From positions 62,001 through 126,000 of the forward strand of contig NZ_SBHM01000009.1 in NCBI RefSeq assembly GCF_004028095.1: a stretch of DNA of 64,000 nt, given 5' to 3'. The notes beneath the pieces were generated by a model. The model was given only the letters and a program-made list of their open reading frames with translations. It was not told the DNA's origin and made no database searches. Every line of letters begins with the position of its first letter. The first letter of the stretch is position 1. This DNA is from Paenarthrobacter ureafaciens (GTDB lineage Bacteria; Actinomycetota; Actinomycetes; Actinomycetales; Micrococcaceae). Made by a program: the position numbers and the translations under genes. This document shows, one piece after another, positions 9,715-31,375 of this stretch.

Positions 9715-9721
9715 GAGTACC

Positions 9722-12268: not shown

Positions 12269-13225
12269 ATGGCCAAGAAGACCGCCGCAATTGTCGGTTC
12301 AGGCAACATCGGGACCGACTTGATGTTCAAGATCATGCGACGCTCGAAAAACGTCGAAGTCAAATACATGATCGGCATAGACCCCAACTCTGACGGCCTT
12401 GCCCGCGCAGCCCGCCTCGGCGTGACAGTCTCTTCAGAAGGCGTCGAGTGGCTGCTGGCGCAGGAGGACAAACCGGACTTTGTGTTCGAATGTACTTCCG
12501 CTAAAGCCCACGCCGCGAACGCCCCGAAGTATCGAGAGGCGGGCATCCGAGCCATAGACCTCACCCCTGCCGCGGTGGGGCCTTACGTCGCCCCGGTAGT
12601 CAATTTGGAATCGATCACCGACACCATGAACGTCAACATGATTACCTGCGCCGGCCAAGCGACGACGCCGATCGTTGCGGCTATCTCGTCCGTAGTCCCA
12701 GTGGATTATGCAGAAATCGTGGCATCCATAGCCTCGAAGTCTGCCGGCCCCGGCACACGGGCCAACGTCGATGAGTTCACCGAAACTACCGCAGAGGCGC
12801 TCCAGGCTGTCGGTGGTGCCAAGCAAGGCAAAGCGATCATCATCATCAACCCGGTTGAACCGCCCATGATCATGAGGAACACCATCTACTGCGCCATACC
12901 GGCAGAAGCGGCCGAACCGGGTCCAACCCAGGAGCGAATTCGGGCTGCGATCGCCGAGGCTGTCGAAAAAACCCGCGAATACGTTCCTGGTTACGAACTG
13001 CGTGTCGAACCACAGTTCGATAGCTCCCGCGACGATTGGAATGGTGCCGGAAGAGTGGGCGTGTGGGTCCAAGTCAAAGGTGCCGCAGACTACCTACCCG
13101 AATATGCCGGCAACCTGGACATTATCACTGCGGCTGCAACCCGCACTGCAGACCTCCTTGCCGAGAAGATGGACGAGTCTGAGCTCGTCACAGCCTCCAC
13201 CGAGAACACCGGGAGCCAGTCATGA
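12269..13225 (+). CDS. nbaJ: Acetaldehyde dehydrogenase (acylating)
   Basis: A 318-residue enzyme that turns acetaldehyde, NAD+ and CoA into acetyl-CoA. The Rossmann motif [14 protein letters not shown] is at residues 8-21 and the catalytic Cys is in [11 protein letters not shown]. It forms a channelling complex with the aldolase encoded next (overlap at 13222-13225). GGAAACCC precedes the start. This is the standard terminal step of meta-cleavage pathways. Confidence 0.95.
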
Positions 13226-14256: not shown

Positions 14257-14275
14257 AACTCACACCAAGGACGCT

Positions 14276-15241
14276 ATGCCACACGCAATCGTTGCCACCC
14301 GCGCCGGCGGACCCGAAGTCTTGAACTATCTAACGGTTCCACGCCCTGTCCCTCAGCGGGGGCAGTTGCTGGTGCGGGTGGCCGCTGCTGGGATCAACTT
14401 CAGAGACGCCCTTGAACGAAGAGGCACGCGCAAGACCCTTTATCCCTACATACCCGGCACGGAAGCCTCAGGCACTGTTGTAGAAGCAGCAGAAGGGTCT
14501 GAGGAATTTAGCGAGGGCGATCGCATAGCCACGGCAGAAAGCGTCGGCTGCTACGCGGAATACGTCCTGGTCGACGCGGAAAAAGCATTGCCAATACCTG
14601 ACGACGTCGACGATGTCACCGCGGCCGCGCTAACCTTCCAAGGACTGACTGCCCACTACTTGGTAAATTCCTCCTTTGCTGTAGCCGGCCACCACACGGC
14701 CCTAGTCAACACAGACGGAGATGAAATGGGCTTGCTCCTTATCCAACTGCTCAAGGCCAAGGGCGCCCGGGTCATAACTACTGCGCCGGCGGACCAACGG
14801 GAAGCCCTCGCTCTGCAAGCCGGAGCAGATCAAAACTTCCGTCGCGCCGACTTCAACACGGACGTCCGCAACCTTACCGATGGCCGCGGGGTCGATGTTG
14901 TGTACGACTGCGTCGGTGGGGAGACAATTGCCGAATCAATTGCCTCGCTCACTGTTCGCGGTACCTTGGTGTCGTTCGGCCAACGCTCGGGTCCTGTCCC
15001 TCCCATCGACCTGCAAGGAACGATAGCCGAAAAGTCAATCACCCTCATGCAGCCATCCATGGCGGCGTATTTACAAAATCCCGTCGAACGGCGCTGGCGC
15101 TCCTCGGAGATCTTCACTGCTGCTGGAAGCAATGCTCTCAAGGTCCTTGCTAGCACTCAATATCCCCTACGAGATGCGTGCCGCGCGCACCAGGAACTTG
15201 AAGAGGGCCGACTTCAAGGGAAAGGCATTCTCATACCGTAG
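14276..15241 (+). CDS. Zinc-free quinone oxidoreductase-like MDR protein
   Basis: A 321-residue medium-chain dehydrogenase/reductase of the quinone reductase type. It keeps the GroES-like N-terminal fold (GINFRDALERRGTRK, YIPGTEASGTVVEAAEG) and a Rossmann domain, and has no zinc-ligand cysteine cluster. The usual glycine-rich NADPH loop is weak: where AGVG-like residues are expected it reads VNTDGDEMGLLLIQL. It is the last gene of the operon, 19 bases after the aldolase. A reductive side reaction on a quinone or enone intermediate is possible; no pathway step requires it. Confidence 0.8.
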   Translation: MPHAIVATRAGGPEVLNYLTVPRPVPQRGQLLVRVAAAGINFRDALERRGTRKTLYPYIPGTEASGTVVEAAEGSEEFSEGDRIATAESVGCYAEYVLVDAEKALPIPDDVDDVTAAALTFQGLTAHYLVNSSFAVAGHHTALVNTDGDEMGLLLIQLLKAKGARVITTAPADQREALALQAGADQNFRRADFNTDVRNLTDGRGVDVVYDCVGGETIAESIASLTVRGTLVSFGQRSGPVPPIDLQGTIAEKSITLMQPSMAAYLQNPVERRWRSSEIFTAAGSNALKVLASTQYPLRDACRAHQELEEGRLQGKGILIP

Positions 15242-16286: not shown

Positions 16287-16856
16287 CTACTCAGCTTTCT
16301 CCCTGGAGCCCGGTTCAAGGGTGGTGGCCGCGTCGAGGGCGTCATCGACGACAATGAGGTAGTTGTGGCGTCCTGCTGCCAAAGGGATGGAGTGTTCGCC
16401 GTATTTGTTGTAGGCGATGTCGACGGCGTCGTTGGCGTTGGTGATGTTGAGTCGCCGTAGGAGTCGGGCGATGTCGAGGGTGTCCTTATCCCGTTCCGCG
16501 GCGATCTTCATGGCGAGGAGCGTTTCGGTATCCGCTGCATGGATGGTGATCCCGTCGAGGCGTTCAAGTTCGACCCAGGTGGCGTTGTCCGGGAGGAAGG
16601 CTGCGGCGTTGGAGTTGAGCCAGTCGGGTGGGAGATCGTAGTCAGCGGCCATGTCCGCGACGACGGCGTCGATGGCGGTTTTGTCCGCGTAGCTGGCATC
16701 GATGTCGGCGGTAGGTCGGTTGCCGATTCCCTGCAGGATCAGTGCCGCACCGCCAACGAGCTTCACGTCCCCGTAGACGCCGCGGGCCTGCAGGCGGTGG
16801 CCGAGCTCTTCGAGGAGTGCATGGATTTGGATGGAGGTGAGTTCTCCGGAGCTCAT
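16287..16856 (-). CDS. Nucleotidyltransferase-fold protein, probable toxin of an XRE/NTase pair
   Basis: A 189-residue protein with the nucleotidyltransferase core: VKLVGGAALILQGIGNRPTADID has the glycine pair (35-36) and the metal-binding Asp51 and Asp53. It belongs to the DUF6036 / AbiEii-like group. Such proteins are toxins in several toxin-antitoxin or abortive-infection pairs. The start at 16856 is chosen because it overlaps the stop of the XRE gene upstream in an ATGA; a longer frame reaches into that gene. Toxin activity is inferred from family and pairing, not shown. Confidence 0.8.
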   Translation of the reverse strand: MSSGELTSIQIHALLEELGHRLQARGVYGDVKLVGGAALILQGIGNRPTADIDASYADKTAIDAVVADMAADYDLPPDWLNSNAAAFLPDNATWVELERLDGITIHAADTETLLAMKIAAERDKDTLDIARLLRRLNITNANDAVDIAYNKYGEHSIPLAAGRHNYLIVVDDALDAATTLEPGSREKAE

Positions 16857-17473
16857 GCGGTGGCCAGGCTGCGTTCGCGGATGAAGACGTTCATGGCGGC
16901 GAGTTCGTCGGGTGTTTCGGACATGGTGAGTTGCTTCATGGGTTCGCGGATGTGCCGGTAGGACTCGGCAGGCATCCACGCTTCGGTGAGTGGTTTGATG
17001 CGTTGGGTCCAGGGCGGTGCTGGTTGGCCGAGCCGGTGTGCCGTGTAGTTGGTGATGCCGGCGAGGGCAGCGGACCAGTGCGGGTCCTTCAGCCGGGGGC
17101 TGCGCTGGAGCAGAGGGTGACCTGCCTTGAGGGAGGCGGTGGCGTAGTCGGCGAGCATCTTGATCGCGAACTCGAAGTCCCGGTTGGCGAGCAACTCTGT
17201 GAAGGTTTGGGCGTAGTCGCGGCGGCCCGGGTCGTGGTCGCTGCCGCGTGGAATGGGGTCTATGGCTTCCAATGAGAGGCCGAGGGCTGACATGACGGCG
17301 AGGGTCTTGCCGAGTTCAGCGTGTTCGTGGCCGGCTTCGAGATCTATGAGGAACTTTCGTGACACCCCTGCCTTGTTGGCAAGAGCCTGTTGGGAGAGCC
17401 CGTTTGCCTGGCGCCGGGCGCGGAGGATCGCTCCGGCCGCGATCGGTGAGTTGATGCTGGTCCTGTACGTCAT
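16853..17473 (-). CDS. XRE-family regulator, probable antitoxin partner of the nucleotidyltransferase
   Basis: A 206-residue protein with an N-terminal helix-turn-helix (about residues 13-60; GLSQQALANKAGVSRKFLIDLEAG is the classic XRE signature) and an unrecognised C-terminal part of about 130 residues. It is the first gene of a two-gene unit with the nucleotidyltransferase, coupled by a 4-base overlap. A perfect inverted repeat lies 26-43 bases upstream of its start, as expected of an autorepressor. By analogy with AbiE-type systems the HTH protein would repress the unit and neutralise its partner. Confidence 0.82.
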   Translation of the reverse strand: MTYRTSINSPIAAGAILRARRQANGLSQQALANKAGVSRKFLIDLEAGHEHAELGKTLAVMSALGLSLEAIDPIPRGSDHDPGRRDYAQTFTELLANRDFEFAIKMLADYATASLKAGHPLLQRSPRLKDPHWSAALAGITNYTAHRLGQPAPPWTQRIKPLTEAWMPAESYRHIREPMKQLTMSETPDELAAMNVFIRERSLATA

Positions 17474-18696: not shown

Positions 18697-19635
18697 TTAG
18701 GGGGTTAGAACGAGCTTGGCAGGGGAGCCCTGTTGCTGGATTTCCCATGCCCGCCCGCATTCGGCAAGCGGAAGAACTGCGGTATCTACGTTCAGGGCGC
18801 CGGTCGCTGCCAGCCCGGTAAGTTTCAGATAGGCGTTGCGGCGGACGTCGTACGGCGCATCCACATGTGCGAAACCGAGCAGTTCCAGCCGCGCTGCGCG
18901 GATGACATTCGCGGGCAGTTGTATAGTCGATGCCGCCGACTGGCCGATCTGAATGTGGCGGGCCCCGTTTGCAGCGACGTGCATGGCCGCCAGCGCTGGG
19001 TCACCCCAGATGGGATCAATGATGACGTCGTAGCCGCGCCCCCCACTGGCCTGTCTTAGGGCTTCTACCAAGTCCGTGTCCGGTGTAATGGTTACCGTGG
19101 CATCGGCACCTCGCTGTCGGGAAACGGCAAGACGGTCGGATTCACGGTCCGCGGCGACTACCCTGGCAGCGCCGAGGGCAGCTGCGATCTGGACAGCCAC
19201 TGACCCAAGTGCGCCGGTTGCTCCGAGCACGAGCACGTTCTGCCCGGGTTGAAGGTTCGCGCGCCAAGTGAGGGCCAGCCAAGCGGCCAGTCCGGTGTTG
19301 CCGAGGGCGGCGGCGGTGACGTCATCTATGTCGTCAGAGAGGTCCAGCAGATCCTGTTCAGCAACCAACGTTTGCTCGGCCCAGGAGCCGTGGGGCGCAA
19401 TTGGTGCGGTGAAGAAGACTCTGCGTCCGGAGGCCGTCCGTCCTACTCCGTCTGCCCCTATGACGTATGGCAAGGTGCCCGGGTCCCCGTAAGCGCCGGA
19501 GGCCCTTGCCAGGTCGAGGTGGTGGACCCCGGCAGCAACGACATCGACGATGACATGGCCAGTTTCGGCTTGAGGGTCCGGGAACTCTGCATACTCCGGT
19601 GCGGTTCCGGTCTGTGTGAGGACTGCTGCTTTCAT
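18697..19635 (-). CDS. Zinc-free NADPH:quinone reductase-like MDR protein
   Basis: A 312-residue medium-chain dehydrogenase/reductase of the zinc-free quinone reductase type. It has the N-terminal GroES-like domain (VAAGVHHLDLARASG, YVIGADGVGRTASG) and a well kept NADPH loop (VLVLGATGALGSVAVQIAAALGAARVVAADR). It is the last gene of the six-gene minus-strand operon led from 24990, 10 bases after the FAH-family gene. It may reduce an activated double bond in the pathway; substrate unknown. ATG 19635 is preferred over an upstream in-frame start inside the FAH gene; AAGGACAC precedes it. Confidence 0.85.
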   Translation of the reverse strand: MKAAVLTQTGTAPEYAEFPDPQAETGHVIVDVVAAGVHHLDLARASGAYGDPGTLPYVIGADGVGRTASGRRVFFTAPIAPHGSWAEQTLVAEQDLLDLSDDIDDVTAAALGNTGLAAWLALTWRANLQPGQNVLVLGATGALGSVAVQIAAALGAARVVAADRESDRLAVSRQRGADATVTITPDTDLVEALRQASGGRGYDVIIDPIWGDPALAAMHVAANGARHIQIGQSAASTIQLPANVIRAARLELLGFAHVDAPYDVRRNAYLKLTGLAATGALNVDTAVLPLAECGRAWEIQQQGSPAKLVLTP

Positions 19636-19645
19636 GGTGTGTCCT

Positions 19646-20587
19646 TTATGACGGAGCGTTGGTTGTGGTGTTGGCGACGATCTGCACGCTGATTGAACCG
19701 AGGCCGGTGATCTGACCTTTGAGCTGATCACCCACGGTCATCCATGTCCCGGTGCTAAGGCCCACACCTGCAGGCGTTCCGGTGAGTACGACGTCGCCGG
19801 GTTCAAGTGTCACGTGTTCGCTGATTTGGGAGATCAGCTCGGGCACCGACCAGATGAGGTTGGAGGTGTTGGCGTTTTGCCGTAGCTCGCCATTGAGCCA
19901 AAACTGCAGTTGCAGGTCCGTGTCATCTACAAAGCGGGCGGGCACGATTTCCGGACCCAGGGGGCAGCTGTCGTCGAAGACCTTGCCCCCGAACAGGTCG
20001 AACTTGACCAGGTGCTTGGGATGGCGCTGCCAGTCCCGGGCCGACAGGTCCAGGGCGATCGTGTAGCCCGCGATGTGTTCCCGAGCCCGCTCCGCAGGTA
20101 TGTGACGGCCGGCCCGGCCTATGACGAACGCCAACTCAAGTTCGTAGTCGAATTTCTCGGTCTGGGTGGGGTACCGGACTGAACGTCCTTGGCCGACGAG
20201 GGTGGTGGTGGGCGGTTTGAGGAAGAAGACCGGAACGTTGTCCTTCTTCGAAAATCCCGCATGACCGCCGTCGTTAATGACATGGTCGTAGTAATTGGCG
20301 CCAGTGCAGATGACTTTGTTCGGATACTGCAGCGGAGTCAGCCAGTCCTCCAGCAGCGTCGGCTCGGTAATTGGCTGGACGTCACTGTTTGGCAGATTGT
20401 CGACGGCGGTGAGCAGCCGGGCTTCAGCGGCCTCCCAGTTGGCAAAGACAGCCATCAGCCCGCGCGCGGAATCGGCAGAAACCAACTCGGGGGAGACATC
20501 AGCGATTTTGTAGAGGCGACCGTCAGGGAGTCGGAGAGTTGGGGTTGGTACCCCATTGATCCGGATGGTCGAAAGAGAGAACGTCAC
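19646..20587 (-). CDS. Fumarylacetoacetate hydrolase (FAH)-family protein 2
   Basis: A 313-residue FAH-superfamily enzyme. Core motifs are CTGANYYDHV, PVFFLKPPTTTLVGQG, FDYELELAFVIG with metal-binding Glu residues, AGYTIALDLSARDWQ and DVVLTGTPAGVGLSTG. The family includes acylpyruvate hydrolases, HpaG-type isomerase/decarboxylases and oxaloacetate decarboxylases, all handling 2-oxo/enol acids with Mg2+. The start overlaps the kinase stop by 4 bases. Together with the extradiol dioxygenase of the same regulon, an HpaG-like isomerase/decarboxylase or acylpyruvase role is plausible. Confidence 0.88.
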   Translation of the reverse strand: MTFSLSTIRINGVPTPTLRLPDGRLYKIADVSPELVSADSARGLMAVFANWEAAEARLLTAVDNLPNSDVQPITEPTLLEDWLTPLQYPNKVICTGANYYDHVINDGGHAGFSKKDNVPVFFLKPPTTTLVGQGRSVRYPTQTEKFDYELELAFVIGRAGRHIPAERAREHIAGYTIALDLSARDWQRHPKHLVKFDLFGGKVFDDSCPLGPEIVPARFVDDTDLQLQFWLNGELRQNANTSNLIWSVPELISQISEHVTLEPGDVVLTGTPAGVGLSTGTWMTVGDQLKGQITGLGSISVQIVANTTTNAPS

Positions 20588-21630
20588 AGGGTTGGCTCCT
20601 TGATGGGCGCCGTGTCTGGTCTGCCGGCACTTGCCGCCACCATCCAGTCGTCGACGATCACGTCGACCGTGGAGATGGGGCCGGTCATGAGGGACCGCGC
20701 GAGTTCCCGGACCCGGTTGCGTTGGGATAGCGACAAGTACTCCACAGGGGATGCGCCGTCAACGCGTGCAAGTGCCAGCAGCGGCAGGAGCGCAGCGATG
20801 CGTTCCCTAAGGCGGTCTTCCGCTTCCCAGTCGATGTGCTGGACATATCCTTCCAACAGACGATGGACGGAGTGATGCAATTCCTCGGTGCGATCAGGCA
20901 GAACGATGGCCTTGAGCAGCAAATGGTTCACGCAGAACGCCACATCGAACGCAGGGTCACCGAACCAGCCACACTCGGCGTCGAGCAGCACCGGCCCGTG
21001 GGGTCCAAGAAGAATATTCTTTGGACTGACGTCCCCGTGGATCACTGTCAGGTGCGTGCCGGCTGTCACCTCCGCGAGCCAATCGATCCGGTCTTCAAGG
21101 TCCGGGTTTGCCCGGGCGGTGACGCGGAAGTAGGGCTCGATGCGCAAGGCATCGAAGTTGTCGTCAGTAGCGAACGTGGTTGCAGCCGTTGAGTCCTTGG
21201 TGCTTGCTGAGTGCAAGCGACCAAGCAATTCTCCGACTGACTGCGCGGACGCTGGATCGATGTGCCCGGCAAGGAGCTCGGACTTCCACACCGGGTAGTC
21301 TTCCGGCGGGAGGAACTGCATGGCGAACAATCCAGCTAGCTCGTCATAAGCCAGCACCTGCGGAACCTGCTGGGGAGCAGTCCGGGAGGCGAATTGCAGC
21401 CAGTCATACTCCACCCGGTTTCGGGAAGTGGGTGCCAACCATTCCTGGGCTACCTTAAGCCGGCCCAGCGCACCCTTGACGCAGAGCGTACGGCCAGGCA
21501 AGTCCACCCGCCAGAGGTCCGAACTCACGCCACCAGTCAGGGGGGTGAATTGTGCCGCCTCGGAAGGCTGCACGAGCCCGTGGCGAAGCAGGAACTCCCT
21601 CACGCGGGCTTCAGGCTCCACGGCGTTCAC
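20584..21630 (-). CDS. APH-family phosphotransferase (small-molecule kinase)
   Basis: A 348-residue kinase of the aminoglycoside phosphotransferase/choline kinase fold. The ATP-binding Lys is Lys52 (TLCVKG). The catalytic loop HGDVSPKNILL carries Asp200 and Asn205, and Asp217 in LLDAECGWFG binds metal, so it should be active. In a catabolic operon between an enolase paralogue and an FAH enzyme, resistance is an unlikely role. APH-fold kinases phosphorylate hydroxy acids in levulinate degradation (LvaA), and phosphorylation of a 2-hydroxy acid made by the neighbouring dehydrogenase is the obvious hypothesis. It overlaps both neighbours by 4 bases. Confidence 0.87.
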   Translation of the reverse strand: MNAVEPEARVREFLLRHGLVQPSEAAQFTPLTGGVSSDLWRVDLPGRTLCVKGALGRLKVAQEWLAPTSRNRVEYDWLQFASRTAPQQVPQVLAYDELAGLFAMQFLPPEDYPVWKSELLAGHIDPASAQSVGELLGRLHSASTKDSTAATTFATDDNFDALRIEPYFRVTARANPDLEDRIDWLAEVTAGTHLTVIHGDVSPKNILLGPHGPVLLDAECGWFGDPAFDVAFCVNHLLLKAIVLPDRTEELHHSVHRLLEGYVQHIDWEAEDRLRERIAALLPLLALARVDGASPVEYLSLSQRNRVRELARSLMTGPISTVDVIVDDWMVAASAGRPDTAPIKEPTL

Positions 21631-22931
21631 CGGACAGCCAATGGAGTGGTGCCCAAGGTGGGCAGCTGCCTGAAAGCCAAGGACGAATCTTCGGCGATGC
21701 GCACCAGTTGGTTGTACTTGGCCAGTCGCTCCGAGTTCCGGACAGAGCCAATTTTGATCTGCCCGGCCCCGGTGCCAACTGCGAGGTCCGCAAGGAAGTC
21801 ATCCTCGGTCTCCCCGGATCGCGCAGAAACAACTGGCGCATAGCCAGCCGCGCGCGCCTCCGCGACGACGTCGAGTGTGCCGGAAAGAGTGCCGTTCTGG
21901 TTGACCTTGACGAGGACACCGTTGGCGACACCGCGTGCTATGCCTTGGGCGAGCCGTGAGCTGTTGGTTGTGAACAGGTCATCACCGATCAACCTGACAC
22001 GTTGTCCCAGTTGCGAGGTCAGTGCCTCCCATCCGGCCCAGTCATCCTCATCAAGGGGATCTTCGATCGAGACGATCGCAAAGCGATCCACCCAGGACGA
22101 GACCATGTCGATCATCTCAGCTGTGCTGAAATGGCGTTCCTGCCGGCGCAGATGATAGTCACCGGAGCTGCTGTCATACAGGGACGAGGCGGCCACGTCG
22201 ATGGCGATTGCGATGTCAGTTCCGGGCTGTAAACCCGCGGCCTCAATGGACTGTGTGATCAGTTCGAGGGCTTCTTCACCGGTCCGACATGCCGGGCTGA
22301 GGCCGCCTTCGTCGGCCAACAGAGTTGGCAGCCCCTGTTCGGCGCAGAGCCTGGCGGCCGCCGCCCGCACCCGTGATGTGAGCTGGATCGCTTCGAGGGC
22401 TGACGTTGCCGCTACCGGGACGGCCAGAAAATCCTGGACATCCATTCCGCGGCCGGCGTGCAGCCCGCCGGAAAGAATGTTGACCATCGGCATCGGGAGC
22501 GCCGGCTCGTCGATGTTGGCGAGCTGGGCGATTCGCCGATACAGTGGCAGCTCTCTCGCGATGGCGGAGGCCCGGCAGACAGCCAGGGACACGCCGAGTA
22601 CGGCGTTGGCGCCAAGACGTGACAAGTTGGCTGTTCCATCCAACTCCCGAAGTCGCTCGTCTATGGCGCGTTGGTTCTCGACGTCGAGGCCACGCAGCGC
22701 TTCGGCGATCTCGCCGTTGACATGGTCCACGGCTGCCGTGACGCCGAGTCCGTCGAACGCCGACTCATCCCCGTCCCGCAGTTCGTGGGCCTCGTGAGTG
22801 CCGGTGGACGCGCCGGAAGGCACGGATGCCCGTCCCCTGACACCAGTGTGGAGGACGACCTCGACCTCCACAGTGGGTCGTCCTCGAGAATCGAAAATTT
22901 GGCGGCCGTGGACATGGTGGATCGTGCTCAA
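21627..22931 (-). CDS. Enolase paralogue with altered active site
   Basis: A 434-residue full-length enolase homologue. Retained catalytic or metal residues are the mobile loop SGASTG (40-44), His158, Glu208, Asp245, Glu290, Asp317, Lys342 and Lys393. Two canonical positions differ: the Glu of VDIQEF is Asp167 (MDVQDF) and the His of SHRSGET is Ala370 (VSARSGET). AASEFY is also changed to AASSLY, and QIGTLTET to QNGTLSGT. The gene sits in an operon with a kinase, a D-2-hydroxyacid dehydrogenase and FAH enzymes, not with glycolytic genes. It may dehydrate a phosphorylated hydroxy acid other than 2-phosphoglycerate. The glycolytic enolase is presumably elsewhere. Confidence 0.88.
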   Translation of the reverse strand: MSTIHHVHGRQIFDSRGRPTVEVEVVLHTGVRGRASVPSGASTGTHEAHELRDGDESAFDGLGVTAAVDHVNGEIAEALRGLDVENQRAIDERLRELDGTANLSRLGANAVLGVSLAVCRASAIARELPLYRRIAQLANIDEPALPMPMVNILSGGLHAGRGMDVQDFLAVPVAATSALEAIQLTSRVRAAAARLCAEQGLPTLLADEGGLSPACRTGEEALELITQSIEAAGLQPGTDIAIAIDVAASSLYDSSSGDYHLRRQERHFSTAEMIDMVSSWVDRFAIVSIEDPLDEDDWAGWEALTSQLGQRVRLIGDDLFTTNSSRLAQGIARGVANGVLVKVNQNGTLSGTLDVVAEARAAGYAPVVSARSGETEDDFLADLAVGTGAGQIKIGSVRNSERLAKYNQLVRIAEDSSLAFRQLPTLGTTPLAVR

Positions 22932-23917
22932 AATGACACTCCAGTGGTGAGAGGGGAAGGGGTGTTGCAGGGATAGCGGGCTGGTTCACCGCGCAGGACG
23001 CGCACAACTTCCTCGGCAGCGCTGCGGCGCAGGTCGATGACGGAAGCGTCGGACGCGAAAGCTATATGCGGCGTGACGACTACCCCGGGATGGGCCAACA
23101 GCTCTTCGGGAACAACTGGCTCTTCCTCAAGGACGTCCAAACCTGCACCGCCCAGATGTCCGCTGTTCAAGGAAGCGAGCAGCGCTGCCGTGTCCACCAG
23201 GCCCCCGCGGCTGACGTTGATAATAAACGCATCACGCGGCAGCAAGGCCAACTCCCGTTGGCCGATGAGATGGTGCGTCTGCGGGACCAAGGGCGCGTGG
23301 AGAATGACCACATCACAGCTCGCAAGGAGATCGTCAAGGGCCAGCACCTCCATGCCGTCGGTGTCGGCAGGCGCATTCGGATCACTGATCACAACGCGGG
23401 CTTCGAGGGCGCGCAGCTTAGCGGCGGTTGCTCTGCCGATCCGGCCATATCCGATGACGCCGCAAGTCAGGGTGGACAAGCGGCGAAGGCGGGCACCTGC
23501 CGGGTTCCACTTGCCGGCGCGCACTTCACGGTCGGCAGTGACCAGGCCACGGGTCCAGGCAAGAGCCAAGCCAACGGCGTGATCCGAAACCTCGGCCACG
23601 CAATAATCGGGGACGTTAGTGACCTGCACGCCGCGATTAGTAGCGGCAGATACGGCGATGTTGTCCAAGCCCACTCCCATGCGGGCTACGATCCGCAGGG
23701 GGACCGAGGAGGCGATCGCATCTGCGGACACGGCTGCCCAGCAGGTGAGGATGGCAGCGGGCTGGTGTTCAGCGACCAGCGCGTCGATGGTTTCCACCGG
23801 GGCGGGGTCGGCCGGGCCGGAGATGACGCGGTATCCGGCTTTTTCGAGTATTTCCCGCTCGATGCCGTCGTCGGGCCAGGCCCGGTCGGTCAGCAAGACG
23901 GTCTGCTGCTGGGTCAT
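22928..23917 (-). CDS. D-2-hydroxyacid dehydrogenase (NAD-dependent)
   Basis: A 329-residue D-isomer-specific 2-hydroxyacid dehydrogenase. The Rossmann motif is GVIGYGRIGRATAAKL (about 153-168). The catalytic triad is visible as Arg237 (VSRGGLVD), Glu in LDVLEEEP (264-266) and His284 (VTPHIAF). The family reduces 2-oxo acids to D-2-hydroxy acids (phosphoglycerate, glyoxylate or hydroxypyruvate type). The ATG at 23917 overlaps the FAH stop; the longer frame extends into that gene. Beside a kinase and an enolase it mirrors the hydroxypyruvate - glycerate - phosphoglycerate - phosphoenolpyruvate sequence. Confidence 0.9.
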   Translation of the reverse strand: MTQQQTVLLTDRAWPDDGIEREILEKAGYRVISGPADPAPVETIDALVAEHQPAAILTCWAAVSADAIASSVPLRIVARMGVGLDNIAVSAATNRGVQVTNVPDYCVAEVSDHAVGLALAWTRGLVTADREVRAGKWNPAGARLRRLSTLTCGVIGYGRIGRATAAKLRALEARVVISDPNAPADTDGMEVLALDDLLASCDVVILHAPLVPQTHHLIGQRELALLPRDAFIINVSRGGLVDTAALLASLNSGHLGGAGLDVLEEEPVVPEELLAHPGVVVTPHIAFASDASVIDLRRSAAEEVVRVLRGEPARYPCNTPSPLTTGVSF

Positions 23918-24990
23918 GCGTACTCCTTCATTCCTTGGCCTGTTTCGGCCGGATATGGGTGGGGTGTGGTTGTGTTGGGGGCTGGTTCCACGCACTGTGT
24001 GACCTGCGTGCCCAGCCCGGATACCGAGGCCGTGACTAAGTCGCCTGCACGGAGGAAACGGCCGTGGTGGAGGCCAAAACCGGCAGGGGAGCCCGTGCAG
24101 AGCAGGTCGCCAGGGCGAAGTGGGGTGTGCCGGGACAGGTGCTGCAGCTGTTCAGGAATGGTGAACACCATGTCCTCTGCTGTGTCATCCTGCATAGTCG
24201 TGCCATTAAGGGTCAGCTGCAGCTTGAGGCTGGAGGGGTTGGGTACCTGCCATGCAGGGACGAACCACGGGCCAACAGGCAATGATCCTTCCATGCCCTT
24301 GCATTGCAGCCAGTCGCTGCCCAGTACGGGGAGGTCGGGCCTGACCACTCGCGAACGGATGGTCAGGTCGTTGACGACGCAGTAACCGGCAATCACCAGC
24401 GGCGCTTCGGAGAGCGTCAGGCGCGTGGCAGAAGCCCCTATGACTGCACCGATCTCGACTTCCCAGTCCATCGTGTCCACGTCCTGGTCAATGATCAGTT
24501 CGCCGTAAGGGACGCCCACGCGCTCCATGCTGGTGAGGCAAATGTACGGGCTGCCCTCCCGTTGCCGCTGATCGAGCGCCCGCATAGTCGCGGTGCGCGT
24601 TCGTTCGGCGTCGACTGGAAGGGCGGCGTCGACGGCGGCTTCCACCACTTGCCTCCGATAGTTGCCAATAGTGCAGAACAGCTGCCTGGGCCGGAGTGGA
24701 GCTTCGATGCGAAGTGACCTGACGGCCAAGCCTTGTTCGGCGATCGCCCGTCCGGTCGCCGGTAGTTCTGTTAGGCATTGCAGTTCAGAGTGGTGCTCAT
24801 TCCACTGTTGGAGCAGGTCGCTGATCGAGGTGAACCTTGCGCACGGCCATTCTTGCGCCCAGTCCAGTAATGGAAGAGCACGGCTACCTTGTACGAGCCA
24901 CACCTCGGCCACCCCTCCAAGCGAGGCCGCTTGGGCGAAGACAACTCCTTTGGGGGCAAAGTCGGGGTTTGAGTGATCGTCATCGAACAT
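23914..24990 (-). CDS. FAH-family protein 1, first gene of the LacI-regulated six-gene operon
   Basis: A 358-residue FAH-superfamily enzyme. The conserved C-terminal core shows TIGNYRRQVVEAA, TMDWEVEIGAVIG (metal-binding acidic residues), IAGYCVVNDLTIRS and GDLLCTGSPAGFGLHHG. The N-terminal 90 residues are less conserved and may be a small extra domain. The LacI operator at 24992-25007 ends one base before this ATG, leaving no room for a ribosome binding site, so the message may be leaderless; the alternative upstream start at 25026 would put the operator inside the gene. Two FAH enzymes in one operon recall the paired HpaG domains. Confidence 0.85.
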   Translation of the reverse strand: MFDDDHSNPDFAPKGVVFAQAASLGGVAEVWLVQGSRALPLLDWAQEWPCARFTSISDLLQQWNEHHSELQCLTELPATGRAIAEQGLAVRSLRIEAPLRPRQLFCTIGNYRRQVVEAAVDAALPVDAERTRTATMRALDQRQREGSPYICLTSMERVGVPYGELIIDQDVDTMDWEVEIGAVIGASATRLTLSEAPLVIAGYCVVNDLTIRSRVVRPDLPVLGSDWLQCKGMEGSLPVGPWFVPAWQVPNPSSLKLQLTLNGTTMQDDTAEDMVFTIPEQLQHLSRHTPLRPGDLLCTGSPAGFGLHHGRFLRAGDLVTASVSGLGTQVTQCVEPAPNTTTPHPYPAETGQGMKEYA

Positions 24991-24991
24991 A

Positions 24992-25007
24992 GTGCTAACG
25001 ATAGCAC
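24992..25007. promoter_or_regulatory. LacI-type operator O1 (six-gene operon)
   Basis: GTGCTAACGATAGCAC, a near-perfect palindrome with central CG typical of LacI/GalR operators. It lies directly at the start of the FAH-led operon. The motif occurs five times in this region. Confidence 0.85.
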
Positions 25008-25075
25008 AGACTCGACACCGCGGCACTACCTTGCTTTCAACTAAAACGAACAGTTGCTTGGGAATTCACTCCTCG

Positions 25076-25118: not shown

Positions 25119-25142
25119 TGACGTTAGTTGAAGGGATTCACA

Positions 25143-25673
25143 GTGAATGTTCGCAGGGTGGTTACAGGTACCGATGACAGTGGAAGATCGGTGCTGGTCT
25201 CCGATGGGTTTGTCCCCAACAGCCATGACTTCCAGAGCATGCCTGGACAGTCGCAGACCAGGATCTGGTTCACCGCGGGCACGCCCACAGGAGACCTTCC
25301 TGAAGGCGAACCTACGGACAACCATGGGCCGGTGGTCCCCGGACCCGGGGGCGCCAGCTTCGTCATCGTCCGGTATGCGCCGGATTCCGTGGTTATGAGC
25401 CCGGACTTTGACCCGGTTGCGGCAGGACAGGAGCTAGGGGACTATGCACCGGACCTGGCGGAAGTATTTGAGCCCAATGGGATGCACAAGACGCGCAGCG
25501 TCGACTATGGGGTTGTTTTGGACGGAGAACTGTGGCTTGAACTCGATGACGGGTTCCAGGTGCGTCTCACGCCCGGAGACACAGTAGTCCAGCTCGCTGC
25601 GCGACACGCATGGCGCAACAAAACGAAGGCGCCGGCGGCGGTGGCTTTCCTGCTCACCGGCGTCGACGCCTGA
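25143..25673 (+). CDS. Cupin-domain protein
   Basis: A 176-residue protein whose C-terminal half is a cupin: MHKTRSVDYGVVLDGELWLELDDG is cupin motif 1 and LTPGDTVVQLAARHAWRNKT is motif 2, with His and Glu positions able to bind a metal. The N-terminal half (about 80 residues) has no recognised domain. Such stand-alone cupins can be isomerases, decarboxylases or small dioxygenases. The GTG at 25143 follows GAAGGGA; a TTG at 25128 is possible. It is divergent from the FAH operon and controlled by operator O2. Confidence 0.75.
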   Translation: MNVRRVVTGTDDSGRSVLVSDGFVPNSHDFQSMPGQSQTRIWFTAGTPTGDLPEGEPTDNHGPVVPGPGGASFVIVRYAPDSVVMSPDFDPVAAGQELGDYAPDLAEVFEPNGMHKTRSVDYGVVLDGELWLELDDGFQVRLTPGDTVVQLAARHAWRNKTKAPAAVAFLLTGVDA

Positions 25674-25751: not shown

Positions 25752-26861
25752 CTAGGGGAGAACGATGTAGTTGCTGAAGCCCCCTCGAGGATCCTTCAAC
25801 CGGCCGGAGATCGCGGTGTTGACATCCGACAAAGGAAACGCCTCGGTCTCCAAATAGTTAAGGTCGAGTGTTCCTGTCTCGATCATGTCGGCCATTTCCT
25901 GTCCCTGGGCTGCCGTGAACCAATTCGAGCCGATGAGTTGGACTTGCTCGTCCATCAGCCATTTCATGTCAACTGGAACCTCCTCGGAAACCCCGCCAAC
26001 GTTCACCACTTTCCCGCCACGCCTGACGCCCTTCATGGAGTCAATCATGGCTGCAGCATCGGCCCGGGCACCGAGCGCACTGATGACAAAGTGCGCTCCG
26101 TCGCCGCGTGTCCGCTCCCTGGCCCACTCTGCGCTCGACTGCTCGCCGAGCGTAAGGACTTCGATCCGGCGCGGCGAGAGGGCCTTAACACGCTCCAGCA
26201 ACTCCTGATTGCGTCCGGTCCCGAGGATTTTCGCCACCCCCATGCTCAAGCAGAGCACAGTTGCTGCAACGCCGAGTGTGCCCGTGATGCCGTCGATCAA
26301 GGCGACAGTGCCGGGCCCGGCGTCAGCCAATTTGAGGGCGCCGTACGCTGTGCCGATGTAGCCGAAACGGGCGGCCAACTCGAACGGCAAATTGTCCGGG
26401 ATTTTTACCAATGCCTGTTGAGGTGCGGTCATGAATTCACTGAAGCCGCCATATGGATATTGGTCGAAAATCCGCTGGCCGTCACGGGACGTGCTGAAGT
26501 ACCCGTTAAGGGTGTAATAGCGGCAGCGGCTCGGAGTACCAGCCGAACAGGCGTAGCAACTTCCGCAGGAGCGCAGCGGGCTTACGTAGACACGGTCACC
26601 TGGCTTGACGTTGATGACCGATTCTCCGACCTCCTCCACCACGCCGGTGGGGTCGAGTCCAAAGATTGCAGGAAAGGCAGGGATGGGCTGGTGTGGGAAC
26701 CAGGTCGGCCAGCTGTTGATGACGTTGGCCATGTTGGGCACGATGCCAACCGCCTTGACCCGGACAAGCACATCGGTGGGACGGGGTTTGGGTACTTCGA
26801 TCGTGTCGATCGACATGGGTTCGCCGATCTTATGTAGTCGTGCGGCGCGCATCATCGTCAT
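25752..26861 (-). CDS. MDR-family alcohol dehydrogenase-like protein lacking usual catalytic zinc ligands
   Basis: A 369-residue medium-chain dehydrogenase. The structural zinc loop is intact (LRSCGSCYACSAGTPSRC, four Cys). The catalytic zinc ligands expected in alcohol dehydrogenases are not visible: the VGICGSD-like Cys is replaced by VGIVPNMANV and the GHE motif by GLDPTG. The nucleotide-binding loop reads IDGITGTLGVAATVLCL, also unusual. It may be a reductase rather than an alcohol dehydrogenase. It is last of a three-gene unit with the dioxygenase and CMD genes under operator O3. The Met1/Met3/Met4 choice is open. Confidence 0.82.
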   Translation of the reverse strand: MTMMRAARLHKIGEPMSIDTIEVPKPRPTDVLVRVKAVGIVPNMANVINSWPTWFPHQPIPAFPAIFGLDPTGVVEEVGESVINVKPGDRVYVSPLRSCGSCYACSAGTPSRCRYYTLNGYFSTSRDGQRIFDQYPYGGFSEFMTAPQQALVKIPDNLPFELAARFGYIGTAYGALKLADAGPGTVALIDGITGTLGVAATVLCLSMGVAKILGTGRNQELLERVKALSPRRIEVLTLGEQSSAEWARERTRGDGAHFVISALGARADAAAMIDSMKGVRRGGKVVNVGGVSEEVPVDMKWLMDEQVQLIGSNWFTAAQGQEMADMIETGTLDLNYLETEAFPLSDVNTAISGRLKDPRGGFSNYIVLP

Positions 26862-26918: not shown

Positions 26919-27461
26919 CTACTTGCGGTAGCTGTCCTCGAGATCGATGTGGAGGAGGCCCATGATGCGGACCCCGGAGTTGTACCAGGCAATGGTCAGG
27001 GTCAGTTCCACCATTTGCTGGTCATCCAGGTGTGCGGCGGCGGCATCCCACGTTTCGCTGGACACGTGCACGTCGTTGGTGGACTCCCTGGCGAGGGCAA
27101 TGACGGCAAGTTCAGCCTCGGTGAACAAGCCGGAGTTCGCGGCGTCTGCCACTGCTGCAAGCTGCTCGTCGGTGATGCCGGCCTTGCGGCCATGTGACTG
27201 ATGATGGGCGATCTCATATTCGGAGCCTGTGGCATGGCCTACTGACAATATGGCCAGTTCACGCAGCTTGGGGCTCAGCTCGGAACCGTCCCGCAGGGCG
27301 TTGGCGTAGGAAAGGAAGGCGTCGAGAAGGACCGGGGCGTTTGCCAAGGTGCGGAAGATGTTGGCCGTCGGCACTTTGCGCTCCGCTTCGAGCCTGTCCC
27401 AAAGGGGCTGTTGGTCGATGGACGCTGCATGGTCGCGGGAGAGGGAAGGTACTCGGGACAT
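26919..27461 (-). CDS. Carboxymuconolactone decarboxylase (CMD)-family protein
   Basis: A 180-residue all-helical CMD/AhpD-superfamily protein. The core helix SPKLRELAILSVGHATGSEYEIAHHQSHGRKAG lacks the CxxC of AhpD peroxidases and carries Glu and His instead, as in the decarboxylase-like and uncharacterised groups. It lies 28 bases downstream of the dioxygenase gene in the O3 unit. A role as decarboxylase or lyase on the ring-cleavage product fits the neighbourhood but is not proven; CMD proteins are functionally diverse. Confidence 0.82.
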   Translation of the reverse strand: MSRVPSLSRDHAASIDQQPLWDRLEAERKVPTANIFRTLANAPVLLDAFLSYANALRDGSELSPKLRELAILSVGHATGSEYEIAHHQSHGRKAGITDEQLAAVADAANSGLFTEAELAVIALARESTNDVHVSSETWDAAAAHLDDQQMVELTLTIAWYNSGVRIMGLLHIDLEDSYRK

Positions 27462-27489: not shown

Positions 27490-28491
27490 TCAGCGTGGTT
27501 GCGGGCTGGACAGGAACTTCTCCAGCGTCATGGGTGAAGGGGGAATGGCGGGGGACCTCAGCGGGACATCAACGAAGGCAGAAGCCTCGAAGTACCACTT
27601 CTCCAAAGCGGGGAGTCCCCACCGGGCATTGGTGCTGACCGATGTTGCGTCCCAGCGGACGGGCTCTGTCTCGATGTCGATGGTTTGGTAGTGGCTGTTG
27701 AAGACTTCGACGCGGTGGCCGTCCGGATCGCGAAGGTAGCTGAACAGCATGCCGCCCGGCCCGTGGCGGCCTGGACCACGCTCGACGCCGTCGCCGTACC
27801 CCAGGATGCCCGCGAAGTCGCAAGCGGTAAAGATGTCATGGCTTTCGGAGACGGTGTAGGCGAAATGGTGCAGGCTGGGGCCGTCGCCTGGAACCATGGC
27901 GAGGTCCAGACAGGTTCCTTTGCGATACATGAAGGCGCCGATGAGCTCGTCGCCGTGCTCCAGGTACTCCGAGTTGCGGAACCCCAGGCCGCTGTAAAAA
28001 GCACACGACTCATAGACGTCCGGCACCAGCAATTGAAAGTGATCCAGCCGCTGCGCATGTGCACCTTTGTAGTGTTCAAAGTTGATATGCAGACGTGGCC
28101 TGGTGGACATCGTTGCACACAACTCAAGGGGTGTGCCGGTGGGGTCGGATACTTGCAGCGTCCGGCCTTGGTGAGGCATCTCCACCCACTCAGCCGGGAG
28201 TCCGCGTTCACGGAAGTACCGGTAGGCCTCATCCAAGTCCTCGTCGAAAAAGACGCGGAATCCGAGACGACGGGCTGTACCGCCGTCGGGGCTTTTTTCC
28301 AGGACGAGGCTGTGGTGACAAGCCTCGGCCAAGCCGCGAAGATAGACGGTCGAGTCGTCCTCGTCACTCACCACCAAGCCCAGGACAGTGGTGTAGAACT
28401 TGCGGCTCTCGGCCAGGTCGGCGACGTTTAGTCGTAAATGGCTCGTCCGACTGATGTTGAACGGCGGGCGCAGGTCGACCGGTGGCAGCAT
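27490..28491 (-). CDS. Extradiol dioxygenase of the homoprotocatechuate 2,3-dioxygenase type, altered second sphere
   Basis: A 333-residue two-domain vicinal-oxygen-chelate protein. Iron ligands are His151 (QRLDHF), His209 (SLHHFAY) and Glu262 (GHRVEVF), and Tyr252 is kept. Compared with the Brevibacterium/Arthrobacter homoprotocatechuate enzymes as I remember them, the acid-base His200 equivalent is Leu195 (GTCLDLAM), Trp192 is Phe187 and Asn157 is Gln153. It should bind iron, but ring opening or substrate may differ. ATG 28491 follows GGAGA; the upstream GTG at 28524 would start inside operator O3. First gene of the dioxygenase-CMD-MDR unit. Confidence 0.87.
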   Translation of the reverse strand: MLPPVDLRPPFNISRTSHLRLNVADLAESRKFYTTVLGLVVSDEDDSTVYLRGLAEACHHSLVLEKSPDGGTARRLGFRVFFDEDLDEAYRYFRERGLPAEWVEMPHQGRTLQVSDPTGTPLELCATMSTRPRLHINFEHYKGAHAQRLDHFQLLVPDVYESCAFYSGLGFRNSEYLEHGDELIGAFMYRKGTCLDLAMVPGDGPSLHHFAYTVSESHDIFTACDFAGILGYGDGVERGPGRHGPGGMLFSYLRDPDGHRVEVFNSHYQTIDIETEPVRWDATSVSTNARWGLPALEKWYFEASAFVDVPLRSPAIPPSPMTLEKFLSSPQPR

Positions 28492-28508
28492 GATGTTTTC
28501 TCCAATTG

Positions 28509-28524
28509 GTGCTACGGGTAGCAC
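28509..28524. promoter_or_regulatory. LacI-type operator O3 (dioxygenase unit)
   Basis: GTGCTACGGGTAGCAC: the outer arms are identical to O1, the four central bases differ. It lies 18-33 bases upstream of the dioxygenase start. The altered centre suggests weaker binding or a different level of repression. Confidence 0.72.
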
Positions 28525-28575: not shown

Positions 28576-29607
28576 TCAGGCGGAGCGCTTGTGCTTTTCC
28601 GCCCGCGGTGCGGCAGTGCTTCCGCGGGGCACAAGCCAGCCCGCCGACACGGACTCATAGGGGTCGTTGCCGGCTGGCGGGCTGGTGAGCCTGCGGATGA
28701 ACCAAAGCCCACACGAGGTGGCGACGTCACCGATGGGAAGGCTGATGGTGGTAAGGCCGCGCCCCCACCATGAGAATCCGCTTTGATCGCCGAAACCGAC
28801 GACGGAAAGCTCCTCGGGCACCTCAAGGTCCATGTCCAAAGCTGCGTCGAGCACGCCGACGGTGTGTTGCACGGAACCGAGCACAAGGGCTGTCGGCGGG
28901 GTTGGCCGGTTCAGAAGCCGGCGGAGAGCCTCCTTTGCGTGTTCTGGCGACGCAGGTGGACCCAGCTCAATGAAGTCGGAGGTCAGCGGGATGCCTTGGG
29001 CGTGCAATGCCTGTTGATAGCCCTCAAGTCGTTCCTGGCCTGTAGGCAGTTCCTTCGAGGCTCCGATATACGCAATGCGCTTGTGGCCCAGTTCCAGAAG
29101 ATGCGCTGTGGCGTCCTGGAGCGCCCGTTGATCGTCAAGACCGAACCACTGCGCTCCAAGCGACGCATGCCTGCGCAACAACTGAACGTGCGGCATGCCG
29201 CGCAGCAGGTTGGCCGAGTCCACGTGCGGGTTAGGGGTCGGCGCAATTATCAAGCCCGCTGCGTGACTGGCCGACAGTTCCCGTAGGTGTCGTCTTTCAA
29301 TCAGGCGATCATCGAATGTTTCCGCGAGCATCAGCTGATACTCCTCGGCGGCCATGATGGCCGACAACTCGTGGGCGATAGTGGAGTAAAAGCTGTTGCG
29401 GACATCCGGGATGACCAGCCCCACAACGTTACTGGAGGCACCACGCATCATCCTCGCCGCGCGGTTGCCGACATATCCAAGCTCAGAGGCAGCTTGACGG
29501 ACACGAACTTTGGTTTGTTCGCTGATGCGTGCGTCGTCTGCCAGTGCTCGGCCCACCGTAGAAACCGAAAGTTTCAGGTGTTCGGCGATGTCTTTGGTTG
29601 TGACCAT
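28576..29607 (-). CDS. LacI/GalR-family repressor of the dioxygenase/enolase/glutarate regulon
   Basis: A 343-residue LacI-type regulator. The N-terminal HTH (VTTKDIAEHLKLSVSTVGRALADDARIS) and hinge helix (NRAARMMRGASSNVVGLVIPDV) are followed by a periplasmic-binding-protein-like effector domain. GGAGGAATGATG precedes the gene; the second ATG (29607) has the better spacing, the first (29610) is possible. Five operator copies flank the transcription units on both sides, including one in front of this gene, so it probably represses itself and the whole cluster until a pathway compound binds. The inducer is unknown. Confidence 0.92.
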   Translation of the reverse strand: MVTTKDIAEHLKLSVSTVGRALADDARISEQTKVRVRQAASELGYVGNRAARMMRGASSNVVGLVIPDVRNSFYSTIAHELSAIMAAEEYQLMLAETFDDRLIERRHLRELSASHAAGLIIAPTPNPHVDSANLLRGMPHVQLLRRHASLGAQWFGLDDQRALQDATAHLLELGHKRIAYIGASKELPTGQERLEGYQQALHAQGIPLTSDFIELGPPASPEHAKEALRRLLNRPTPPTALVLGSVQHTVGVLDAALDMDLEVPEELSVVGFGDQSGFSWWGRGLTTISLPIGDVATSCGLWFIRRLTSPPAGNDPYESVSAGWLVPRGSTAAPRAEKHKRSA

Positions 29608-29681
29608 CATTCCTCCAGGGCAATTCTTTTAGTGGGTCATTGCGTACGACGCGGCGGCTCGTAGCCATATCAGTCGCTTTG

Positions 29682-30001: not shown

Positions 30002-31375
30002 ATGTCCCATCCCAATTCTTCCGTCCCGGGCAGCCCCTCGGGCGCAACGGGTTCCAGTGTCAAGCATTCAGTACCCACCTACCCTGAGCCTATGGACGCC
30101 ATCTCCATGGATGCCGTCCCAGCCAGCCCTGCTCCTTCCAGGGTCAAGAACAACCCCGAAGGCATGGCCACCAACGTCACAGCTGGCGTCTCACTGGGAA
30201 TTCTGGCAGTAACGTTCATGCTCAACGCGATGGACCGCCAGGTTTTCGCGCCGCTATTGAGCACGATCGCGAAAGATTACGGCTTTACCCTTCAAACGGG
30301 AGGGCTCCTTGCCACCGTTTTCACCCTCGGAATGGCTGTCGCCGGAATACCCGCAGGTTTCCTGGTGGAGCGTTTCTCCCGCAAAGCCGTTCTGTTGGTG
30401 AGCATCGTCATCTACTCGCTCGGCACGCTCGCCACCCCACTGGCAACATCGTGGGGAGACATGGCCGTTTACCGGATCATCTCCGGGCTCGGCGAAGGTA
30501 TGCAGGCTGCTGCACTCTTCGCCGCCGTGGGAGCGTATTTCCATCATCGCCGCGGTCTAGCCCTCGGAATCCTGGGCTTCGCATTTGGGCTGGGCGCCAC
30601 CTTCGGTCCTGCGCTCGGCATCATGTTCGCCGGCCAATTTGGGACGTGGCGGGCCCCGTTCACCATTTTCGGGCTACTCGGACTGCTCCTGGCAGTAGTT
30701 GCGATGTTCACCGTGAGCCGTAAATTCACTGAGCAGGCCATCAGCATGACGGGCGTTGGGGGCTCCTACGACTACATGCCGGCCAAAGCCTACAACCGCA
30801 ACTCCCTCGCTATAGCCGCAGCCTCAGGATGCGGTGCCCTCGCCCTTTATGGCTTCCTGGGGTTGTACCCAACGTTCCTGACCACACAACTGGGCGTCTC
30901 CACCGGAGAATCCGCGGTGGCACTCAGCTTCGTGGGTCTGGGCGGGCTGGCAGGCCTACTCGGTGGTTGGATGGGTGACCGGATCAACCAGCGGACCTTG
31001 CTCATCGTTTCCTTGGTGGTGATGGCTGTGCTCGGCGTACTCATCTATCAGGTGCAGGCGAACTTTGCATGGCAATGTGTGTTCGCCTGCCTCATGGGCG
31101 TCTTCGGAACGGGTGTCTTTTTCCCCAACACCAACAGTGTGATCCAGCGAGCCGTCCGTCCACACCAGGTGGGGCGTGCGGCCGGATTGTTCGTCACGTG
31201 CTATTACGGTTCCGCAGCCTTTTCGGGTCTCTTGTTCGCTGCCCTTGTCCCGCAGGTCGGCTGGCAGGGAGCCGGACTCCTGCAGGTCACCGCACTTCCG
31301 CTGGCGGCCGCTGCGATCATGCTTGTAGTTCAGACGTCCCTGTTCAACAACGCACCCCGGGCGGCCAGCCATTGA
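30002..31375 (+). CDS. MFS transporter, first gene of the glutarate operon
   Basis: A 457-residue major facilitator. Helix 1 begins only near residue 58 (ATNVTAGVSLGILAVTFMLNAMDRQVF); the preceding tail is Pro/Ser-rich and unusually long. AGGAG lies just before ATG 30002, which supports the long form; Met55 would be the alternative. The sequence type is that of anion/aromatic acid:cation symporters or oxalate/formate-like carriers. As the first gene of the LacI-controlled plus-strand operon it probably imports the substrate or a shunt product such as a dicarboxylate. Confidence 0.85.
   Translation: MSHPNSSVPGSPSGATGSSVKHSVPTYPEPMDAISMDAVPASPAPSRVKNNPEGMATNVTAGVSLGILAVTFMLNAMDRQVFAPLLSTIAKDYGFTLQTGGLLATVFTLGMAVAGIPAGFLVERFSRKAVLLVSIVIYSLGTLATPLATSWGDMAVYRIISGLGEGMQAAALFAAVGAYFHHRRGLALGILGFAFGLGATFGPALGIMFAGQFGTWRAPFTIFGLLGLLLAVVAMFTVSRKFTEQAISMTGVGGSYDYMPAKAYNRNSLAIAAASGCGALALYGFLGLYPTFLTTQLGVSTGESAVALSFVGLGGLAGLLGGWMGDRINQRTLLIVSLVVMAVLGVLIYQVQANFAWQCVFACLMGVFGTGVFFPNTNSVIQRAVRPHQVGRAAGLFVTCYYGSAAFSGLLFAALVPQVGWQGAGLLQVTALPLAAAAIMLVVQTSLFNNAPRAASH

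Follow-up and report, generated by a model that had tools for sequence, protein, structure and literature searches.

The window analysed here is the whole stretch of 64,000 nucleotides from Paenarthrobacter ureafaciens (positions 62,001 to 126,000 of contig NZ_SBHM01000009.1, assembly GCF_004028095.1), and our subject is a gene on its minus strand (21627..22931) that encodes an enolase paralogue of 434 a.a., which we call the D/A enolase. The open reading frame (ORF) is intact, contains the Enolase_N and Enolase_C domains, and has a TTG start codon that overlaps the upstream stop by 4 bases. The protein passes the TIGR01060 'eno' model with 516.6 bits (cut-off 300) and falls below the cut-off of PF13378, a family of the mandelate racemase/muconate cycloisomerase group (25.4 versus 29.4 bits). 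Its two neighbours on the same strand each overlap it by 4 bp: a small-molecule kinase of the APH family (20584..21630, minus strand; PF01636, 64.4 bits, cut-off 23.2) and a D-isomer-specific 2-hydroxyacid dehydrogenase (22928..23995, minus strand; PF02826/PF00389), the true start of which is probably the ATG at 23917. Because of these overlaps the three genes are predicted to be co-transcribed. An earlier note on this DNA had taken their co-transcription as given: the overlaps and the common strand hold, and transcription itself is read from them (a scan for promoters and terminators gave counts near chance). Its description of a catabolic-looking cluster, with a kinase and a dehydrogenase and no glycolysis genes alongside, is borne out by the neighbouring families.

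The reading in the earlier note would fall if this were the sole enolase gene of its genome, but a search for a second eno gene shows that it is not. The host genome (4.40 Mb, 11 contigs) has two Enolase_C matches: besides the paralogue, contig 7 carries a canonical eno (G000:C7:2542212; locus L001). At least two enolase matches are found in each of the eight hosts examined (G000, G016 and G059–G064), the second copy having been read as canonical in G000 only. The paralogue is accessory: among 37 genomes of the same genus searched (its own included) it is present in two, the window genome and G016, and the others have a single enolase match of ∼50% identity, except G030, where nothing passed the threshold applied. 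Among named relatives, the closest come from Paenarthrobacter and Arthrobacter. Family members that bear a name in the homologue listings are called enolase or phosphopyruvate hydratase, and we found no paper on such an enolase or cluster in the open-access PMC literature.

What distinguishes the paralogue is a pair of replaced active-site residues, located from the ORF and the alignment: Asp167 (codon at 22431..22433, minus strand) stands where canonical enolases have Glu, and Ala370 (codon at 21822..21824, minus strand) stands at the position of His369 of Escherichia coli enolase. As the alignment confirms, and as the earlier note had said, Glu208, Asp245, Glu290, Asp317/318, Lys342 and Lys393 are kept; the metal ligands, the lysine base, His158 and the Arg/Ser phosphate contacts are thus all present. 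The description of the E. coli enolase–SF2312 structure (PMC6863902) assigns these residues to distinct parts of the ligand: the carboxylate mimic is bound by Gln166, Asp316, Lys392 and Mg1; the phosphonate by the Ala40 N, Ser371, His158, Arg370 and Mg2; and the hydroxyl that stands for the C3-OH of 2-phosphoglycerate (2-PGA) by Glu167, Lys392 and His369, with Lys341 taken as the base. On this description the changed residues sit at the C3-OH site, being two of the three leaving-group contacts in the SF2312 complex (the third, Lys392, is kept), and the lost His is not phosphate-contacting, as the earlier note had it, but a contact of the leaving-group mimic (PMC6863902).

In the sequences compared, the two changes occur together. 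In an alignment of 84 rows, assembled without choosing rows by motif, 54 have Asp plus Ala (the window gene is counted twice among these, as the window and as L002), 30 have Glu plus His, and none is mixed. Yeast enolase variants at His373 are reportedly much reduced in activity. Both Asp167 and Ala370 are found in 240 out of 240 relatives (for each of two queries, the 120 best of 8000 scored matches), a constancy that applies to near kin, the identity to the queries being at least 70%. Glu167 and Thr394, each present in all 30 canonical rows, are replaced in all 240, Thr394 by Ile or Val; His158, Gln166, Glu208, Asp245, Glu290, Asp317/318, Arg371, Ser372 and Lys393 are invariant in the same set, and Ser42 and Lys342 are constant except for one gapped row each. 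Altogether the canonical residue is lost in both subfamilies of the paralogue (see below) at 16 positions, including 154, 167, 206, 346, 370 and 394, with Ser/Gly154, Asp167, Ala206, mostly Asn/Ala346, Ala370 and Ile/Val394 in the paralogues. The canonical rows of this comparison and of the tree were chosen by their His motif, so His370 is there by construction and the co-occurrence of Glu167 is the finding.

The earlier note had suggested placing the gene in an enolase family tree. When 83 sequences were placed in a maximum-likelihood tree, the D/A rows split off together, as one side of a branch with 99% support in the Shimodaira–Hasegawa-like approximate likelihood ratio test (SH-aLRT); the tree was made by a quick method with midpoint rooting, one long row included, the contig-end fragment L046 unlabelled and the labelled column left in. 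There are two D/A subfamilies, ∼45% identical to each other, the second of which was found beside a subfamily-1 copy in a Streptomyces locus (L015, 10001–14924), where both lie within 5 kb on opposite strands. Two sequences from Terriglobia and Bryobacteraceae records (L073, 1969–3222, and L075, 1924–3363) have Asp167 and Ala370 but retain Ile346; they form a deep branch and are also paired with an APH kinase.

Genomic contexts were compared in loci taken from the best 80 of 497 matches, from plasmid matches (seven and five records) and from drawn genomes (29 regions). These loci are related to one another, so the frequencies given below are not independent; several of them, canonical controls included, are short on one or both sides (e.g. 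L160, L161 and L163) and so are less likely to show neighbours, and gene labels below curated cut-offs are tentative. Of 52 loci with the window-type paralogue (the window, L073 and L075 included), 47 have an APH kinase and 28 a D-2-hydroxyacid dehydrogenase within 6 kb of the enolase, and 20 of the 47 kinase–enolase pairs overlap by 4 bp (starts as called). Adding five plasmid loci and leaving out the window gives 56 subfamily-1 loci, 49 of which have an APH kinase within 1 kb, as do 30 of the 36 subfamily-2 loci (the other six have one elsewhere in the same locus) but none of the 29 canonical loci. Among the seven subfamily-1 loci without one, L039, L046 and L087 are cut off at the gene or close to it, and in L040 the APH frame runs off the contig. 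A thiamine-pyrophosphate enzyme is encoded directly upstream of the kinase–enolase pair in the Burkholderiales loci L027, L029 and L031, and ∼4.5 kb away, at the start of the locus, in L025.

The dehydrogenase depends on the context: it is found in 24 out of 24 loci with ring-cleavage genes of the vicinal oxygen chelate (VOC)/extradiol type, in none of seven sugar-acid-type loci, and in 13 of 61 others (Fisher p 3.8e-7, which ignores relatedness; the 'ring' and 'sugar' classes were fixed after the loci had been seen, as was the limit of 45% identity below which a dehydrogenase was not counted, and weaker matches of 34–39% in L138 and L147 are left uncounted). Such a distribution is expected if the former loci yield a 2-oxo acid and the latter a 2-hydroxy acid for the same kinase. 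In two loci that belong to different enolase subfamilies the place of the dehydrogenase is taken by an unrelated reductase: L018 has an adjoining ApbA/PanE 2-oxoacid reductase (TIGR00745, 265 bits, cut-off 141), and in L137 a 51% homologue of it, so read from its identity and sequence, abuts the APH kinase and the enolase.

Three contexts recur around the paralogue: ring cleavage, a sugar-acid type and an inositol type; in many cases the surrounding genes seem suited to the degradation of plant-type compounds. Ring-cleavage loci encode extradiol or other two-domain VOC proteins together with fumarylacetoacetate hydrolase (FAH) family proteins, and many also a zinc alcohol dehydrogenase, a carboxymuconolactone-decarboxylase-family protein, a cupin and a LacI regulator; their hosts include Arthrobacter, Rhodococcus and Sphingobium, and Rhizobium with the second enolase type. 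Other proteobacterial loci add flavin adenine dinucleotide (FAD) monooxygenases and Rieske oxygenases; VanA_C is assigned by Pfam in L028, L034 and L036, the remaining Rieske proteins being homologues, and such VanA_C-related oxygenases occur in seven of the 56 subfamily-1 loci and in none of the 29 canonical ones. Sugar-acid loci encode a short-chain dehydrogenase/reductase resembling D-xylose dehydrogenase (∼330 bits, cut-off 400), an FAH protein resembling 2,4-didehydro-3-deoxy-rhamnonate hydrolase (351.6 bits, cut-off 500), and sugar ATP-binding cassette (ABC) transporters, with a dihydroxy-acid dehydratase in L140 and L149. The inositol type consists of two loci, L147 and L150: IolD exceeds its cut-off in both and IolE in L150, and the proximity of these genes to the kinase–enolase pair suggests a possible link to O-methyl inositols.

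The cluster in the window is of the ring-cleavage type. Two FAH-family proteins (PF01557) flank the three core genes on the minus strand, one at 23914..25026, whose best sequence match among solved structures is L-2,4-diketo-3-deoxyrhamnonate hydrolase (8gsr), and one at 19646..20587, for which it is 1gtt; next to the latter is a quinone-oxidoreductase-like zinc-binding dehydrogenase that passes no NCBIfam cut-off (18697..19731, minus). Beyond the former are a cupin-like protein (25128..25673, plus; Cupin_2, 24.6 bits, just under the cut-off of 27.2), with homologues in related clusters of both subfamilies, and a zinc alcohol dehydrogenase (25752..26861, minus) and a carboxymuconolactone-decarboxylase-family protein (26919..27461, minus), both with homologues in related clusters. 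A two-domain extradiol dioxygenase (27490..28524, minus) resembles homoprotocatechuate 2,3-dioxygenase, with 299.8 bits against an HpaD cut-off of 321.4. The residues that align with the metal ligands are conserved in it, with Leu at position 200 and Asn at the position of Arg293; the aligned reference chain is itself altered at position 200, which we take to be His in the wild-type homoprotocatechuate enzyme. Its catechol substrate is probably a different one, and homoprotocatechuate was rejected as the ring substrate on the score and on the residues at positions 200 and 293. The cluster continues with a LacI-family regulator (28576..29610, minus), homologues of which lie within 8 kb in 18 of the 56 subfamily-1 and 12 of the 36 subfamily-2 loci, and is followed by a divergent major facilitator superfamily (MFS) transporter, so named from its sequence (30002..31375, plus), with homologues beside related clusters. 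Three further groups of genes in the window were named from sequence only: a separate meta-cleavage-type set at 2289–15241 on the plus strand (aldehyde dehydrogenase, two hydratase-like, acetaldehyde dehydrogenase-like and hydroxy-oxovalerate-aldolase-like proteins); a row of CaiB-like, acyl-CoA dehydrogenase, FadB-like and thiolase genes at 31382–37180, perhaps for dicarboxylate beta-oxidation; and, at 16287–17473 on the minus strand, genes for a helix-turn-helix and then a nucleotidyltransferase-like protein, arranged like a toxin–antitoxin pair.

A hint to the product comes from phosphoenolpyruvate (PEP) carboxylase. Its gene is next to the dehydrogenase–kinase pair on two Rhizobium plasmids (L096 and L097) and in the same stretch on a Pararhizobium plasmid (L100) and in L136 (genome G172, with nearly the same cluster), where what matches is an open frame, 664 codons long, that covers only residues 260–917. 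These four are near-identical rhizobial-type loci, and in a fifth such genome, G108, the carboxylase is ∼10 kb from the enolase. In the Pseudomonas locus L017 it follows the kinase with two genes between, and another ppc lies on a different contig, so the cluster copy is an extra one. The L096 and L017 proteins pass the PEP carboxylase model, and the gene is absent from all 29 canonical loci. Its presence in clusters in two unrelated settings suggests that the module ends in PEP itself, with nothing left on C3, which would mean that it is the leaving group that has changed.

From the observed paralogue, its invariant changes and its gene associations we infer the reactions that follow and the identity of the leaving group, X. 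We regard it as an evenly balanced proposition that the D/A enolases arose from enolase by a rebuilding of the leaving-group pocket, with the parts that handle carboxylate, metal and phosphate retained, and that they catalyse the last step of a three-step module to PEP. Ring cleavage and FAH-type C–C hydrolysis would supply a 3-substituted pyruvate, X-CH2-CO-COO(-); the D-2-hydroxyacid dehydrogenase would reduce it to the (R)-2-hydroxy acid, a step dispensed with where a sugar-acid route gives the hydroxy acid directly; the APH-type kinase, the proposed 2-O-kinase of a 3-substituted lactate, would phosphorylate the 2-OH; and Lys342 of the paralogue would take the C2 proton, with HX expelled from C3, to give PEP. 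Two of the three residues that bind the C3-OH have given way to smaller ones, yet the product looks like PEP; X is therefore probably something other than OH. With X = OH, moreover, the module would repeat the sequence hydroxypyruvate–glycerate–2-PGA–PEP, which the host's own enolase can finish, whereas X = OCH3 makes a dedicated kinase and enolase sensible. We consider OCH3 the most likely X: the pocket would need room for a methyl next to O3, methoxylated aromatics are common, VanA_C-related Rieske oxygenases occur in subfamily-1 loci, and the L017 cluster combines a VanA_C-group Rieske oxygenase homologue with a formaldehyde dehydrogenase of the glutathione-independent kind (766.9 bits against a cut-off of 637). 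The reaction would then be 2-phospho-3-O-methyl-D-glycerate to PEP and methanol, an O-demethylation by elimination that uses neither oxygen nor an organic cofactor. That a widespread family removes methoxyl groups in this way, with methoxylated aromatics, O-methyl sugars or O-methyl inositols giving 3-methoxypyruvate or 3-O-methylglycerate, which would be phosphorylated at C2 and split to methanol and PEP, we put forward tentatively, as somewhat less likely true than false.

Several observations weigh against this proposal or parts of it. The family departs from canonical enolases at 16 positions, so the change is not confined to the C3-OH site. As many as 61 of the 92 loci have none of the ring-cleavage or sugar-acid genes sought, and many of these are bare kinase–enolase pairs that give no hint of X; in three Caulobacteraceae loci (L038, L045 and L050) the available DNA has no APH match beside the enolase. 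PEP carboxylase is found in only five of the 92 loci, from two lineages, and in G108 and G172 the cluster copy is the only ppc match and may simply be the general one. As for methoxyl, Rieske proteins are absent from all 36 subfamily-2 loci, and their best NCBIfam match is methylsterol monooxygenase, far below its cut-off, which does not show O-demethylation. A formaldehyde dehydrogenase of the L017 type is near the module in just one of the 56 subfamily-1 and none of the 36 subfamily-2 loci, and the formaldehyde may come from the Rieske enzyme instead. Neither among the window genes that were scanned nor in the annotated loci was a methanol gene noticed, though no systematic search was made.

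The same facts can be read in other ways. The enzyme could be an ordinary, diverged 2-PGA enolase, and the module a serine-cycle-like set of hydroxypyruvate reductase, glycerate 2-kinase and enolase that supplies PEP carboxylase: the enzyme classes and the carboxylase fit, and TIGR01060 scores the paralogue as an enolase. However, at least two enolase matches are present in every host examined, and a duplicate doing the same job is not expected to fix the replacement of residues as constant in canonical rows as Glu167 and Thr394, so we think this unlikely, although X may be OH with a re-tuned active site. The earlier note had favoured a phospho-hydroxyacid substrate larger than 2-PGA. With the extra group on C3, the enzyme would be a dehydratase of R-CHOH-CH(OP)-COO(-), and FAH, aldolase or thiamine-pyrophosphate enzymes would work up the substituted PEP. 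The lost bulk of Glu167 and His369 could free space not only at O3 but also on C3, and the thiamine-pyrophosphate enzymes of the Burkholderiales loci suit such a route; but the enol phosphate would have to be released, the named neighbours showed no evident phosphatase (no systematic search was made), and PEP carboxylase in clusters in two settings fits PEP rather than a substituted PEP. The note was probably right that this is not an ordinary 2-PGA enolase; extra bulk on C3 is the less likely part, and we give a substrate enlarged there a rather low probability. Elimination of a group other than OH or OCH3 (e.g. another O-alkyl, O-acyl or a halide) would draw on the same evidence as the module that we prefer, as the sequence does not name X, and is quite improbable given that rings bearing methoxyl are common in nature and that VanA_C-related Rieske oxygenases recur nearby. 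We considered and set aside sulfolactate with loss of sulfite, and also 2-phospho-L-glycerate, the latter because a D-isomer-specific dehydrogenase should, by its family, give the (R)-acid.

Few enzymes are as conserved as enolase. A subfamily whose leaving-group site carries a fixed change, and which has a kinase and pathway contexts to itself, would be an example of enolase chemistry turned to another end; many annotations as enolase or phosphopyruvate hydratase would need correction. If X is methoxyl, the module would give bacteria a new means of stripping methoxyl groups from O-methylated sugars and lignin-type aromatics, which is central to the degradation of plant matter: an oxygen-free removal that needs no organic cofactor and would have been hidden under the label phosphopyruvate hydratase.

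Set beside known systems, the D/A enolase shares with enolase proper (phosphopyruvate hydratase, TIGR01060) the fold family, the length, the metal ligands and Ser42, His158, Gln166, Glu208, Lys342, Arg371, Ser372 and Lys393, but it is accessory, adjoins an APH kinase rather than glycolysis genes, and differs at the 16 positions. Carboxyphosphonoenolpyruvate synthase is likewise an enolase relative recruited to another pathway, but one that acts on a phosphonate. We set it aside without a sequence comparison, having no named sequence for one: no protein named PhpH/BcpC is among the homologue matches listed for either subfamily query, and no phosphonate genes (PEP mutase type) were noticed among the ten window genes scanned or the named genes of the annotated plasmid loci, the other loci being partly annotated. 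The proposed module resembles the serine-cycle segment of hydroxypyruvate reductase, glycerate 2-kinase, enolase and PEP carboxylase in its order of reaction types and its proposed end product; the APH-family kinase, the altered leaving-group site and the company of ring-cleavage, sugar-acid and inositol genes are its own. With the known routes of O-demethylation (Rieske oxygenases, tetrahydrofolate-dependent methyltransferases and corrinoid systems) it would have in common the removal of a methoxyl group, which, unlike them, it would achieve by beta-elimination after phosphorylation, using neither oxygen nor tetrahydrofolate nor cobalamin.

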